From: Spirochaetae bacterium HGW-Spirochaetae-1
GTDB lineage: Bacteria; Spirochaetota; UBA4802; UBA5550
Reading direction: 5' to 3'
DNA: 64,000 bases
Assembly (NCBI GenBank): GCA_002839375.1
Contig: PGXY01000006.1
Coordinates: 124,001 to 188,000 of the forward strand
Shown: piece after piece, positions 4,765 through 10,388 of the stretch
Position numbering within the stretch: the stretch's first letter is position 1
Layout: every line of letters starts with the position of its first letter
Made by a program: the position numbers and the translations under genes
The notes under the pieces: model-generated
Databases searched by the model: none
Told to the model about the DNA's origin: nothing
Seen by the model: the letters and a program-made list of their open reading frames with translations, nothing else

Positions 4765-5259
4765 TCAATATGTTTTTGCTTTGAAATCGCTATCGCCATA
4801 ATTTTCTGTCGTACTACAAATTGAGTTATTTGTAAAATTGCCGTCGGTATATCCATTTGTATTGCTGACAGGTTCATTATCGAAGATGACAGTTCCTGCC
4901 TGTTGACATTTAGTAACGGAATCCCCATTTTTGTAAATTACGGTATATTCTGTATCCGTACTGCTCTTAAAAATCTGAAGATTGAAGGTGTTATCGTTAT
5001 TTCTCAATGAAAGACCCGAATATTGTATATTTTCATATGTACCGTTATAATAAATAATGAGGCACGAAGCACCTGCAACACAAGACTCACCCGCTACACT
5101 GGTATAAACCTTGTTTTCAACCGGTGTAGTTATATCGTCATACGTCGTATCAAAATCCATGGTCACAAATCCCTTTTCCGTGGATGAGTCGAAGTTGCCG
5201 GCACACCCCAGGGCCGCAACCATAAATATAGAAAGCAGTACGGTAATTTTCTTCATCAT
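4765..5259 (-). CDS. Putative lipoprotein of unknown function
   Basis: 164 residues. MMKKITVLLSIFMVA then ALGC is a lipoprotein signal with lipobox Cys near residue 18. The mature part is polar, Asn/Thr/Ser-rich and predicted mostly beta, with three later Cys residues. ATG 5259 (or the next codon, 5256) is chosen because AAGGAA lies just upstream and the lipobox is then at the usual distance; the longer reading from 5325 has no support. It begins 53 bp downstream of the candidate selenoprotein gene on the same strand and could be cotranscribed with it. No family recognised. Confidence 0.7.
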   Translation of the reverse strand: MMKKITVLLSIFMVAALGCAGNFDSSTEKGFVTMDFDTTYDDITTPVENKVYTSVAGESCVAGASCLIIYYNGTYENIQYSGLSLRNNDNTFNLQIFKSSTDTEYTVIYKNGDSVTKCQQAGTVIFDNEPVSNTNGYTDGNFTNNSICSTTENYGDSDFKAKTY

Positions 5260-5311: not shown

Positions 5312-5488
5312 CTATTTTCTGTCAAGCATATCAGGCTTTTTCATGCTCTTTTCGTCGCTGATATTTTTGTCCGCGGACCCGCGGCATTCCGGCGACATTC
5401 ACGTGGGTATTCCCATTTTGGGGAAGATGACGCGGTTCAGAAGAATCCATACGGCCAGGATGATAATGAGAGTAATATACGAGTCCAT
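5312..5488 (-). CDS. Candidate small membrane selenoprotein with in-frame UGA (Sec30)
   Basis: Read with the UGA at 5401-5399 as selenocysteine, this gives a 58-residue protein. One hydrophobic helix (about residues 4-22, YITLIIILAVWILLNRVIF) is followed by PKMGIPT, Sec30, MSPE, Cys35 and a charged tail, ending at TAG 5314-5312. The Sec-x4-Cys spacing directly after a membrane anchor suggests a redox pair at the membrane face. GAGG lies 5 nt before ATG 5488. The stretch right after the UGA can fold into a SECIS-like hairpin (5354-5396). Read with the standard code the product would be a 29-residue membrane peptide, which is the alternative. I recall similar short proteins with a PKLGVPT-type motif before Sec or Cys, but cannot verify that here. 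Confidence 0.6.
5354..5396 (-). promoter_or_regulatory. SECIS-like hairpin downstream of in-frame UGA
   Basis: On the minus strand, 19 nt after the UGA (5401-5399), a GGTC apical loop (5379-5376) is closed by a 5-bp stem CCGCG/CGCGG (5384-5380 with 5375-5371). An outer stem GTCGC/GCGAC (5396-5392 with 5358-5354) encloses it. Bacterial SECIS elements lie just after the UGA and present unpaired G residues in the apical loop. As I recall it, the Escherichia coli fdhF element has the same GGTC-containing loop about 18 nt after UGA. Function is inferred, not shown. Confidence 0.5.
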
Positions 5489-5632
5489 TCAGTCCTCACT
5501 AATTAAAAGATGCAAAATAAAATATATAAATATAGTAAAATGTTGAGTGTGATATTACACTTGCAACGGTATTAGTATCAGTGTGTCGGGAGTAGCAAAT
5601 GTTTCACCGTATTATCGTTGAAGGCCGAACAG

Positions 5633-5721
5633 GGCTCTGACCCCGCATTGTTTTTGGGGATACGACACGATAGGCTCTGACCCCTGTTTTTCAGACACGG
5701 CACAAAACAGGCTCTGACCCC
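5633..5721. repeat. Three spaced copies of GGCTCTGACCCC
   Basis: Exact copies at 5633-5644, 5673-5684 and 5710-5721, with starts 40 and 37 bp apart. Between copies 2 and 3 the arms CCTGTTTT (5683-5690) and AAAACAGG (5704-5711) form an 8-bp inverted repeat. The rest of the gene-free stretch 5489-5944 is AT-rich and holds the promoter at 5869-5896; I see no supported gene in it. Motifs of this kind often sit near REP-associated transposase genes, but no transposase is visible in the window. Confidence 0.7.
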
Positions 5722-5868
5722 CCTGTTCTTCGCACCCTTCGCGATCTTCCTGTGAATTCCACCCTCTTCGTATTATTTGACAATTGTTCTTAAAATAAGA
5801 TTGGTTTTTGTCTCTATGCCTGCCGAAAGTTACTATAAAGAAGAAATGAAAAATATCCGTGATTTTTC

Positions 5869-6650: not shown

Positions 6651-6889
6651 TTAAAAAATGTATTTTCCCGGTTCTGCACTAAAACTGTAACCGGGCAGGG
6701 AACTATCACCCCTCATATTTATATTTCATTTTATGCAAAAAGTATCTTGATTTTTAGGGCGCCGTGATGTACCTTTTTAACATAGACGTAACTGTTCTTT
6801 GAAGATACACTTTGACACCGGCGCGGTTTGTTCATTACATGGATACGGTTGGATGCGCAGCGTATCATGATCAGTGCAGTGGAGTATAC

Positions 6890-8347
6890 ATGGCAGGTTC
6901 CTACAGATTAGATATAAAACAGTCGCAAAAACTGGTTATGACCCAGTCCCTGAGGCAGAGCATTGAAATGCTTCAGCTCTCGACCCTGGAGATGGCCCAG
7001 AAAATATCGGAAGAGTTCCTGATTAATCCCACCCTGGAAGAAGACTATCAGACCATTGAAACGCCCGAGTCCGATGAAGGCGATATCCTTGAACGGAACC
7101 TCACGGGCGATGATTATTTTTCCGAACGGCATGATGAGCTGGAAGAGCGCTTCGGCGATACCAGCGACAGCGGCATGTCTTCCGATTTTGAGTTCGACCG
7201 GAAACGTCAGTATATTGAGAACGCCGTGTCCCAGGATGAGTCCCTGGTGGAGCATCTCCTCTGGCAGGCGAAAATGACGGCGCGCGATGAAAAGGACTAC
7301 CTGCTCTACGAGGGTGTCATCACCTCCCTGGACGAGAACGGGCTCCTCGCGGCGCCCCTGGAGGACATAGCACGGGACTTCAAGGTCTCCCCGGAGACGC
7401 TGAGGGAAAAGGCCGCTGTGATCCAGCTTTTCGATCCCATAGGCTGCGCCGTGACCTCGATCCGGGAAAGCCTCCTCGTACAGTGCCGCCATTTTTATCC
7501 CCAGGACCATATCCTGTACCGGATAATCGACGAGCATTTCACTGACCTGGAAAAGCTTAATTACGATGTAATTGCGAAGAAGCTTGACATCCCGCTCCAG
7601 GATGTTCTGGAGCACAGCCGGGAGGTGCAGAACCTGAATCCATTCCCGGGGCGTAACTATTCGCGTAAAGATGTGAAATACATCATTCCCGATGTGGAAG
7701 TGCGCCTGGTCGACGGCGAAGTGATTATCACCATGAATGACGACTGGGTGCCGCGCATAAAAATCAATTCGTATTATATGAGCCTTCTGAAGAAAAAAAA
7801 CATTGAAAAAAAACAGCGGGAGTATATTCAGGATAAAATACAGGCTGCGCGCCATTTCATAAAAAACATAAGCAGCAGGCGTGAAACTATCATGAAAGTC
7901 GTGAAGGCTATCGTGGAGCGCCAGGGGGACTTTCTTGTTTCGGGTCCCGGCAATCTTAAATACCTGACGCACCTGGATATCGCCCGGGAACTGGGAATTC
8001 ATGAGTCTACGGTGAGCAGGGTCACCACGGGAAAATACGCACAGACAATGTGGGGAGTTTTTGAACTTAAATATTTTTTTGTCTCGAAGCTGAAGTCGGG
8101 CCCGCAGCAGCAGGCCGGCGAGGAGCATTCATCCGACCAGGTCAAAAGCGAGATAGTAAAACTCGTGGCGGAGGAATCTCCCGACAATCCCTTCAGTGAT
8201 GAAGAGATCGTTGAAATTCTGAGGAAAAAGGGGGTTGATATCGCACGAAGAACAGTGGCGAAATACCGGGGGGTGCTTGACATTCCGTCCTCGGGTAAGC
8301 GGAAAAAAATCAACATGATCAAAACACAGGAGAGTATTACTCTATGA
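6890..8347 (+). CDS. rpoN: RNA polymerase sigma-54 factor RpoN
   Basis: Alternative sigma factor that recognises -24/-12 promoters and needs AAA+ activators such as NtrX (12267-13622). 485 residues. Region I starts LDIKQSQKLVMTQSLRQSIE (about 5-24), an acidic region II follows, then the core-binding and HTH domains, and the RpoN box ARRTVAKYRGVLDIPSS is near residues 453-470. ATG 6890 is preferred to 6812: GGAG lies 5 nt upstream and region I then sits at the N-terminus as in other RpoN proteins. The stop overlaps the hpf start in an ATGA arrangement. Confidence 0.95.
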   Translation: MAGSYRLDIKQSQKLVMTQSLRQSIEMLQLSTLEMAQKISEEFLINPTLEEDYQTIETPESDEGDILERNLTGDDYFSERHDELEERFGDTSDSGMSSDFEFDRKRQYIENAVSQDESLVEHLLWQAKMTARDEKDYLLYEGVITSLDENGLLAAPLEDIARDFKVSPETLREKAAVIQLFDPIGCAVTSIRESLLVQCRHFYPQDHILYRIIDEHFTDLEKLNYDVIAKKLDIPLQDVLEHSREVQNLNPFPGRNYSRKDVKYIIPDVEVRLVDGEVIITMNDDWVPRIKINSYYMSLLKKKNIEKKQREYIQDKIQAARHFIKNISSRRETIMKVVKAIVERQGDFLVSGPGNLKYLTHLDIARELGIHESTVSRVTTGKYAQTMWGVFELKYFFVSKLKSGPQQQAGEEHSSDQVKSEIVKLVAEESPDNPFSDEEIVEILRKKGVDIARRTVAKYRGVLDIPSSGKRKKINMIKTQESITL

Positions 8348-9153
8348 ACATCACAATAACCGGCAGACATCTTACTGTTACTGAGACTTTGCAGGAATAC
8401 GCGGAAAGAAAAATTGAAAAGCTAGAGCAGTATTTCCAGCAACTCATCGATGCTCATGTCATTCTGTACCTGGAAAAACTGGACCGGGGTGCGGAAGTGG
8501 TAATTAACGGTGATGGTATACAGTTCCATGGAAGGGAAAAAGCCGAGACGTTTTTCTCGGCAATCGACCTTCTCGTCGATAAGATGGAAAAGCAGATAGT
8601 AAAATATAAAGAAAAACACCAGATGCATAAAGGCATCCGCAGTGGTGAAGCAGCCGGCATGGTCATGGGCTACGAAGAGGCCACCGGGAAGGCGGTCCGC
8701 CTCAACCAGGTGAGCAATAAACCAATTGACCGTATCGAGGCGTATTTCCAGATGAAGAATAACGCCACGGATTTTTTCCTTTTTAAAAGAGGAGTGAGTG
8801 TTATCGACAGCGACGAGGATTACTCCAATAAATCCTATGCCGCACTGTACCGCGACAAGGACAAGATTAAAATGGTGGAAATTCCTTTCGAGGATATTAA
8901 AGAACATCGTTTCGAGCATGATACCTTCACGGAGTATGAACTGGAGGTACTCGATGATTCCCTGGTTAAACCGAAAATTAAGTTCAGGAAGGTAGAGTCA
9001 TCCCAGGTTAAGAAAATGACGCTGGACGAGGCAATAAAGGAAATTGAAAAGAATGGCGCGGTGTACATGCCGTTTTTCAATGTGGAGTCACAGTATTTCA
9101 ACGTGATATATAAAAACGGCAAGGACTGCGAAGTTATGGTGCCCGCCTTCTGA
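8344..9153 (+). CDS. hpf: Ribosome hibernation factor HPF, unusually long
   Basis: Binds the small subunit and, in long forms, dimerises ribosomes during starvation. The N-terminal HPF/RaiA domain (about 1-95) is typical: MNITITGRHLTVTETLQEYA, VILYLEKLDRGAEVVI. At 269 residues it is much longer than the roughly 180-200 of long HPF. The last 55 residues match the dimerisation domain (MTLDEAIKEIEKNG ... YFNVIYKNGKDCEVMVPAF). A preceding segment (about 126-183; IDRIEAYFQMKN, DFFLFKRG, ALYRDKDKIKMVEIPFED) looks like a second copy of that domain. It sits between rpoN and hprK, the usual rpoN-hpf context, but ptsN is absent. Confidence 0.9.
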   Translation: MNITITGRHLTVTETLQEYAERKIEKLEQYFQQLIDAHVILYLEKLDRGAEVVINGDGIQFHGREKAETFFSAIDLLVDKMEKQIVKYKEKHQMHKGIRSGEAAGMVMGYEEATGKAVRLNQVSNKPIDRIEAYFQMKNNATDFFLFKRGVSVIDSDEDYSNKSYAALYRDKDKIKMVEIPFEDIKEHRFEHDTFTEYELEVLDDSLVKPKIKFRKVESSQVKKMTLDEAIKEIEKNGAVYMPFFNVESQYFNVIYKNGKDCEVMVPAF

Positions 9154-9174
9154 CGGGTGGCCAACTGAAACCAT

Positions 9175-10125
9175 ATGGACAAGAAACTACGAGTTAAAAA
9201 TTTTCTCGATAACACGCCGCGCATCGATCTTCAGATCAGGCTTATCGCCGGTGAGGGCGGGCTGAACAGGGAAATCCGGGTTGGTGATATCAACCGGCCC
9301 GGCCTCACCCTGGCCGGGTTTTATGACTTTTTTGCCTATGACCGCATACAGATTTTCGGTCTCGGCGAGACGGCCTATATGCGGCAGCTTCCACCCGGGG
9401 ACAAGCAAAAGGCCTATGAAAAGTTTTTTTCATACGAAGTTCTATGCTGTGTTTTTACCCACGATGAGCAGCCCGATGAAGATTTCTGCCGTTACGCCGA
9501 CAAAAACAATGTGCCGGTCATGGTTACGACCCGTGATACAACGCGGTTTATCAGCCTGCTCATTCATTTTCTCGATGAAATTTTCGCCCCGTCCGTGACC
9601 ATGCATGCCACCCTGGTGGATGTCTTCGGCGTGGGTGTTCTTATTCTCGGCCAGAGCGGCGTGGGGAAGAGCGAATGCGCCCTGGAGCTTATAGAACGCG
9701 GCCACCGCCTCGTGGCCGATGACATGGTTGAGATCATAAAGGTCGATGAGTCCCTTCTCATGGGGAGCGGCACGCCTCTGCTCCGGCATCATATGGAGAT
9801 CCGTGGTCTCGGTATCATCAACGTGCGGGAGATATTCGGCATCAGGTCCGTGAGGAACAGGAAACGGATAGAAATGGTGGCCATGCTGGAGGAGTGGGAC
9901 AGCAACGTGGAATATGACAGGCTGGGTCTCGATGATAAAAAATACACCATACTGGATATCGACATACCCTATATCACGATCCCGGTTCGTCCGGGTCGGA
10001 ATATCCCCATCATCCTTGAAACCGCCGCGCTGAACCAGAGGTTGAAAAAACTGGGTGTACATTCGGCCCAGGAGCTGGATCGAAGGATACAGGAATGGAT
10101 TAAGACGGAGAACCATAACAAATGA
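9175..10125 (+). CDS. hprK: HPr kinase/phosphorylase
   Basis: Phosphorylates and dephosphorylates the regulatory serine of HPr using ATP or pyrophosphate. 316 residues, normal length. The N-terminal domain (1-130) is followed by the P-loop LGQSGVGKSECALEL (about 159-173), then RLVADDMVEI and the HprK signature MEIRGLGIINVREIFG. Its stop overlaps the ptsH start by 4 bp, so kinase and substrate are translationally coupled. No PTS permease genes are in the window, so the pair probably works in regulation rather than sugar import. Confidence 0.95.
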   Translation: MDKKLRVKNFLDNTPRIDLQIRLIAGEGGLNREIRVGDINRPGLTLAGFYDFFAYDRIQIFGLGETAYMRQLPPGDKQKAYEKFFSYEVLCCVFTHDEQPDEDFCRYADKNNVPVMVTTRDTTRFISLLIHFLDEIFAPSVTMHATLVDVFGVGVLILGQSGVGKSECALELIERGHRLVADDMVEIIKVDESLLMGSGTPLLRHHMEIRGLGIINVREIFGIRSVRNRKRIEMVAMLEEWDSNVEYDRLGLDDKKYTILDIDIPYITIPVRPGRNIPIILETAALNQRLKKLGVHSAQELDRRIQEWIKTENHNK

Positions 10126-10388
10126 TTGAAAAAGAGGTTGTCGTGAAGAGTGATGCCGGTGTACATGCGCGTCCCGCCATGATGCTGGTGAGGGAAGCGA
10201 TGAAATTTCCCTGCCAGGTGGCTCTTGTGAAGGACGGTGTCGAGGCCGATTGTAAATCAATTATGTCCGTACTGGGGCTTGCCATCGTTTCCGGGACCCG
10301 GCTTAAGGTTCGGGCCGACGGGGACAGGGAGGAAGAAATCGTTGATATTATTGTCTCGATGATTGAAAATGGATTCAATTTAAACTAG
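10122..10388 (+). CDS. ptsH: Phosphocarrier protein HPr
   Basis: 88-residue HPr. The phosphohistidine motif is GVHARPAMML (His15 region) and the serine phosphorylated by HprK is in CKSIMSVLGLA. Both regulatory sites are intact, so it can be a target of the HprK encoded just upstream. Enzyme I and EII genes are not in the window. The gap to the next gene (77 bp) has no clear terminator, so ntrY/ntrX may be cotranscribed. Confidence 0.95.
   Translation: MIEKEVVVKSDAGVHARPAMMLVREAMKFPCQVALVKDGVEADCKSIMSVLGLAIVSGTRLKVRADGDREEEIVDIIVSMIENGFNLN

Follow-up and report, generated by a model that had tools for sequence, protein, structure and literature searches.

The minus-strand gene at positions 5312–5488 of the window (the whole stretch of 64,000 nucleotides analysed here) is predicted to encode a 58-residue membrane-anchored selenoprotein that belongs to a widespread and apparently uncatalogued family. 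The initial annotation had proposed an overlooked small selenoprotein gene at this place, and its reading is now supported by homologues, by exchange of selenocysteine (Sec) and cysteine at the recoded codon, by a covarying hairpin and by the recoding machinery of the genome. Judged from sequence comparison, the identity of the Sec residue and that of its recoding element are, taken jointly, strongly supported and almost certainly correct. The most probable role is that of a membrane-tethered carrier in redox or sulfur-transfer chemistry.

Gene and predicted product

The reading frame is laid out as first described. A minus-strand ATG at 5488–5486 follows a good ribosome-binding site; an in-frame TGA at 5401–5399 is followed by 28 sense codons and by a TAG that ends at 5312. 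Translation of 5488–5312 on the minus strand gives MDSYITLIIILAVWILLNRVIFPKMGIPT-U-MSPECRGSADKNISDEKSMKKPDMLDRK, then the TAG. The features of the locus are listed below with the evidence for each.

5312–5488, minus strand: predicted selenoprotein gene, 58 codons plus TAG, with TGA read as Sec at residue 30 (open-reading-frame reading, 86 homologues)
5493–5497, minus strand: Shine–Dalgarno-like GAGGA, 4 nt upstream of the ATG (sequence)
5417–5482, minus strand: single transmembrane helix, residues 3–24 (AlphaFold2 helix with pLDDT ~85; hydrophobic in all members)
5399–5401, minus strand: Sec codon TGA (Sec30), with P-x2-G-x2-T directly before it (71 TGA and 15 Cys codons in 86 members)
5384–5386, minus strand: Cys35, candidate resolving residue of a U-x4-C motif (Cys at +5 in 55 of 71 Sec members)
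5371–5384, minus strand: apical stem-loop of a bacterial SECIS, CCGCG-GGUC-CGCGG (fold and covariation in relatives)
5396–5392 and 5358–5354, minus strand: outer stem GTCGC/GCGAC around the apical hairpin (in the MFE fold; not conserved in the family)
4765–5259, minus strand: lipoprotein-like gene downstream of the selenoprotein gene (adjoins the family gene in seven other loci of the order)

The single membrane helix that had been expected is reproduced by an AlphaFold2 model of the 58-residue product, in which the tail is disordered. Across the members, positive charge averages 1.6 K/R after the helix and 0.2 before it; by the positive-inside rule this distribution suggests that the Sec side of the helix is cytoplasmic, with the Sec residue just below the membrane.

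Other parts of the window were named from reading translations and include cheR, cheD and cheB (5–2493) and, in a row, rpoN, hpf, hprK and ptsH (6812–10388). About three near-identical AGGCTCTGACCCC repeats lie between divergent genes at 5628–5725.

Homologues and Sec/Cys exchange

A protein search over 393 genomes of the window's phylum, carried out without any condition on the codon, returned 26 true homologues (the window's own included), all with TGA at the same place; two other matches, L035 and L036, were rejected as false positives. Cys forms were collected by a contig scan requiring Cys at the Sec position, which yielded 11 from bins labelled Deltaproteobacteria, Acidobacteria, Planctomycetales, Verrucomicrobiota, Chloroflexi and Cyanobacteriota. 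Profile searches then gave matches in 16 of 189 and 21 of 237 sampled genomes (overlapping samples) from the phylum of the 'Deltaproteobacteria' bins and in 49 of 199, about a quarter, from the phylum of the Acidobacteriia bin, with many further Sec forms in these two phyla. The profile search of a third phylum found nothing beyond the query genomes and the search of plasmids for the family gave no match. The collection comprises 86 different members, with TGA in 71, TGC in nine and TGT in six; the collecting script demanded one of these three codons, so that the absence of TAA and TAG among the 86 is partly by construction. Genomes with a Sec form come from at least three bacterial groups, namely the phylum of the window, the group to which the 'Deltaproteobacteria' bins belong, and Acidobacteriota; Cys forms occur in others.

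The family shares the motif W-x(n)-P-[KR]-x-G-[VI]-x-T-U-[ML]-S-x-x-C. Numbered from the Sec position, Pro−7 and Gly−4 are found in all 86 members, Thr−1 in 85 and Cys+5 in 67, while some Cys lies downstream of Sec in 68 of the 71 Sec members. Homologues ending at the TGA with no conservation beyond it had been named as grounds against a selenoprotein; instead, the downstream peptide is conserved, above all at Cys+5, and close pairs give a pooled pN/pS of 0.42 for the 12 codons after the TGA (few sites). The Sec/Cys exchange at position 30 that had been suggested as a check is seen in 15 homologues, which carry Cys at exactly the TGA codon. A tree of the members needs eight changes of the Sec/Cys label, of which only one is forced by the starred branches, the tree being too short to resolve them. 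Translation of the UGA as Trp was rejected, as the codon is replaced in homologues by Cys and never by Trp and covariation of the hairpin is confined to the TGA forms.

Sec30 and Cys35 may act as a redox pair. The initial annotation had put forward this pairing, which holds for most Sec members through Cys+5 but not for one subfamily, in which UxxxxC is swapped for a near-C-terminal Cys. There, P-RRSAR stands in place of S-x-x-C and the Cys is mostly close to the C-terminus. The pattern U-[AMT]-[VA]-P-x-RRS, with such a Cys replacing U-x4-C, was observed at L061, L062, L066, L069, L070, L113, L121 and L125.

Two members with a Cys codon (L054:4519-4704 and L055:2-175) have a perfect GGUU/GGUC hairpin and come from selB-bearing genomes. 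These hairpins are probably fossil SECIS elements that have persisted after a recent change from Sec to Cys. This explanation is preferred over insertion of Sec at a sense codon, which is disfavoured because the tRNA-Sec of G399 has the ordinary anticodon tca and none was found in G398.

Recoding element

The SECIS-like layout originally described consisted of an apical hairpin inside an outer stem, and both stems are present in the predicted MFE fold of 5401–5354, with the apical loop beginning 19 nt past the TGA, at 5379. The two stems differ in standing: the apical one is a feature of the family at large and covaries, whereas the outer stem is peculiar to the window sequence.

Taken alone, the window fold is unremarkable against dinucleotide shuffles (z of −0.93 for 48 nt and −1.43 for 26 nt), but it is unusual among sequences recoded synonymously for the same peptide (z of −3.5, p of 0.003). 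It is because of the comparative evidence, and not of the single-sequence fold, that the hairpin can be placed above chance. A stem of at least 5 bp was found in 70 of the 71 Sec members, with the loop mostly 19–23 nt past the UGA; the loop reads GGUC in 19 members and has a G within its first two bases in 66. Two-sided changes occur at five of six pairs in 24 relatives of the window's group and at all seven pairs in 26 other Sec members, and in both groups pairing and covariation lie above all 500 shuffles and every slid control. The same structures in the Cys members are at chance level and show no covariation, and, measured against synonymous recoding, the Sec members have a mean z of −1.94 and the Cys members one of −0.73. 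The window member is without the SLDRE stretch that is usual in the family after Cys35; its perfect hairpin, retained despite this divergence of the peptide, fits selection on the RNA.

Recoding machinery

The source genome (G000; 5.2 Mb, 14 contigs, 96% complete) was searched for selA, selB and tRNA-Sec, as the initial annotation had advised, and all three were found; the absence of selB and tRNA-Sec had been named there as an argument against the gene. An operon at C1:264-267 kb has selA directly upstream of selB, the match to selB lying 312 bits over the cut-off, and a tRNA-Sec (72 bits, anticodon tca) is located just upstream of this operon. SelB matches over the cut-off are present in 22 of 24 tested Sec-form genomes versus 7 of 15 Cys-form genomes. 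The two Sec-form genomes that depart from this are G513, where a tRNA-Sec is accompanied by a truncated SelB-like match at the end of a contig, and G408, where the search found neither selB nor tRNA-Sec, possibly owing to a gap in the draft.

Gene neighbourhood and proposed role

Neighbours on the same strand and within 1.2 kb were counted for 87 loci and named by Pfam. The most frequent are thioredoxin (13), DUF302 (13), a HesB-like selenoprotein (12), the YgaP-type transmembrane domain (12), rhodanese (11) and an FmdB-type zinc ribbon (11), followed by DsbD-type proteins (four), DUF6132 (four) and TauE (three). Any sulfur or thiol gene lies within 1.2 kb at 48 of the 87 loci, compared with 7 of 87 at a distance of 2.5–4.9 kb. 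The Cys forms of the 'Deltaproteobacteria' bins are flanked on one side by a thioredoxin and on the other by a DsbD-type protein that has its own thioredoxin domain, several Acidobacteriota loci have the order YgaP-type transmembrane domain, Sec gene, thioredoxin and FmdB, and the HesB-like selenoprotein is directly upstream in 12 loci of the window's order. DUF302 is fused to the Cys form in L095 (by Pfam) and in L099 (by sequence), and these natural fusions provide a clue to what DUF302 does.

Comparison with the relatives supports a selenoprotein that is recoded through a bacterial SECIS and is predicted to have one membrane helix; its biochemical role we infer from the gene neighbourhoods. 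The best explanation, which we consider probable, is a single-pass inner-membrane selenoprotein that would serve as a carrier, tethered to the membrane, in redox or sulfur-transfer reactions. SelB with Sec-tRNA, bound to the hairpin just past the UGA, would insert Sec at residue 30, placing it on the cytoplasmic face, close beneath the membrane. Rhodanese, YgaP, DUF302 or HesB-like partners would then deliver oxidized or sulfane sulfur, in the form of a disulfide, polysulfide or persulfide, which the selenol could attack; a selenenyl sulfide would next form with Cys35 and would be reduced by thioredoxin.

Several observations count against such a relay. At 39 of the 87 loci there is no sulfur or thiol neighbour within 1.2 kb, and the window's own neighbours are genes for the lipoprotein-like protein, which has no Pfam match, and an OMP-like protein rather than sulfur genes. 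The HesB-like selenoprotein of the source genome is also encoded away from the window gene, with its in-frame TGA at C10:57891. Two further points weigh against the explanation as a whole: the loss of the SLDRE stretch in the window member and the lack of selB and tRNA-Sec matches in the Sec-form genome G408. This HesB-like gene (L219:4877-5332, G000:C10:57891) contains the sequence GFGUGGPRLG and is divergent from a gene for a CoA-disulfide-reductase-like flavoprotein.

A wider proposal, about which we are more tentative and which has somewhat less than an even chance of being right, is that the family forms a selenium-dependent branch of bacterial persulfide handling, in which membrane microproteins would use a Sec at the inner face as a carrier of sulfane sulfur or electrons, with thioredoxin, rhodanese/YgaP, DUF302 and the HesB-like selenoprotein as partners. 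The family itself would link the use of selenium to sulfane-sulfur and thiol redox chemistry, and it offers a way into the function of DUF302 and of the HesB-like selenoprotein, neighbours that are both poorly understood.

The neighbourhoods can also be read in terms of metals. The product would still be a real selenoprotein, with Sec and Cys forming a pair of ligands for a soft metal or metalloid (Hg, Cu, Zn or As) that serves a transporter or sensor. An ArsR-type regulator is found nearby in two loci, RND efflux genes lie 1.6–4 kb away in several Acidobacteriota loci, the FmdB-type zinc ribbon is adjacent in 11 loci and many selenoproteins are tied to metals (PMC13188914, a 2026 review). The closest and commonest neighbours, however, are thioredoxin, rhodanese, DUF302 and YgaP-type genes, whereas the RND and ArsR genes are rarer or farther away, and we regard a metal-binding role as unlikely, at about one chance in a handful. 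Rather less likely still is a membrane-tethered, thioredoxin-dependent peroxidase or antioxidant with Sec as the peroxidatic residue and Cys35 as the resolving one: it would account for the thioredoxin beside the gene in 13 loci and for the thiol-peroxidase-like gene divergently adjacent in L087, but the model, with Sec in an apparently unstructured membrane-side segment, has no peroxidase fold, and the rhodanese, TauE and DUF302 neighbours suggest sulfur over peroxide. That the TGA is a true stop, leaving a 29-residue peptide or a decayed frame followed by a chance hairpin, is extremely improbable and was rejected: standard gene callers would end there and the single-sequence fold is insignificant against dinucleotide shuffles, but downstream conservation across phyla, Cys in place of Sec at the exact codon, covariation of the hairpin limited to the TGA forms and co-occurrence with selB all argue against it.

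Comparison with catalogued families

None of the members scanned matched a relevant model in NCBIfam release 20, Pfam or PHROGs. The NCBIfam models of small selenoproteins (Tso, Sao, OS_HP, GOS and others) gave no relevant match at E values of 0.5–1, TIGR01911 (HesB-like, with an Fe-S_biosyn fold and a GUGGPR motif) matched no member scanned, and 23 members had no Pfam match to PF11127 or PF00581 (YgaP/rhodanese). Weak matches to Pfam, NCBIfam and PHROGs models (ATP synthase 8 or B, Arabinose_trans and others) were set aside as hydrophobic-helix noise. No solved structure matched the family, none of the 119 prokaryotic selenoprotein families tabulated in 2026 (PMC13188914, Table 1) and none of the new families of PMC12013277 fits it, and a text search of the literature for the family motif strings returned only noise. 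That gene callers cut the product at 29 residues would explain how the family came to be missed.

The family thus looks like a new one of a kind of selenoprotein already known. As in other bacterial selenoproteins that depend on UGA, SECIS and SelB, a UGA is followed directly by a hairpin, SelA, SelB and tRNA-Sec are encoded in the genome and Cys homologues exist; the present family differs in lying outside the 119 families of PMC13188914 and in having no NCBIfam or Pfam model. The HesB-like selenoprotein (TIGR01911) is likewise small and its gene directly precedes the family gene in 12 relatives, but it is unrelated in sequence, has a soluble fold like that of iron–sulfur carriers with the GUGGPR motif and is encoded by a separate, adjacent gene. 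TsoA, TsoB, TsoC, TsoX and TsoY (Haft and Tolstoy 2025, as cited in PMC13188914) are also selenoprotein families found recently through gene neighbourhoods; the motifs given for them (LULAxC, GxxU, UxxV and others) are different, and their NCBIfam models match no member scanned. The YgaP-type rhodanese with its transmembrane domain (PF11127/PF00581) is similar in pairing a small membrane anchor with a residue that handles sulfur at the membrane face; the present proteins differ from it in failing to match the YgaP model and in having a single predicted helix that would bear Sec in a short tail of its own.
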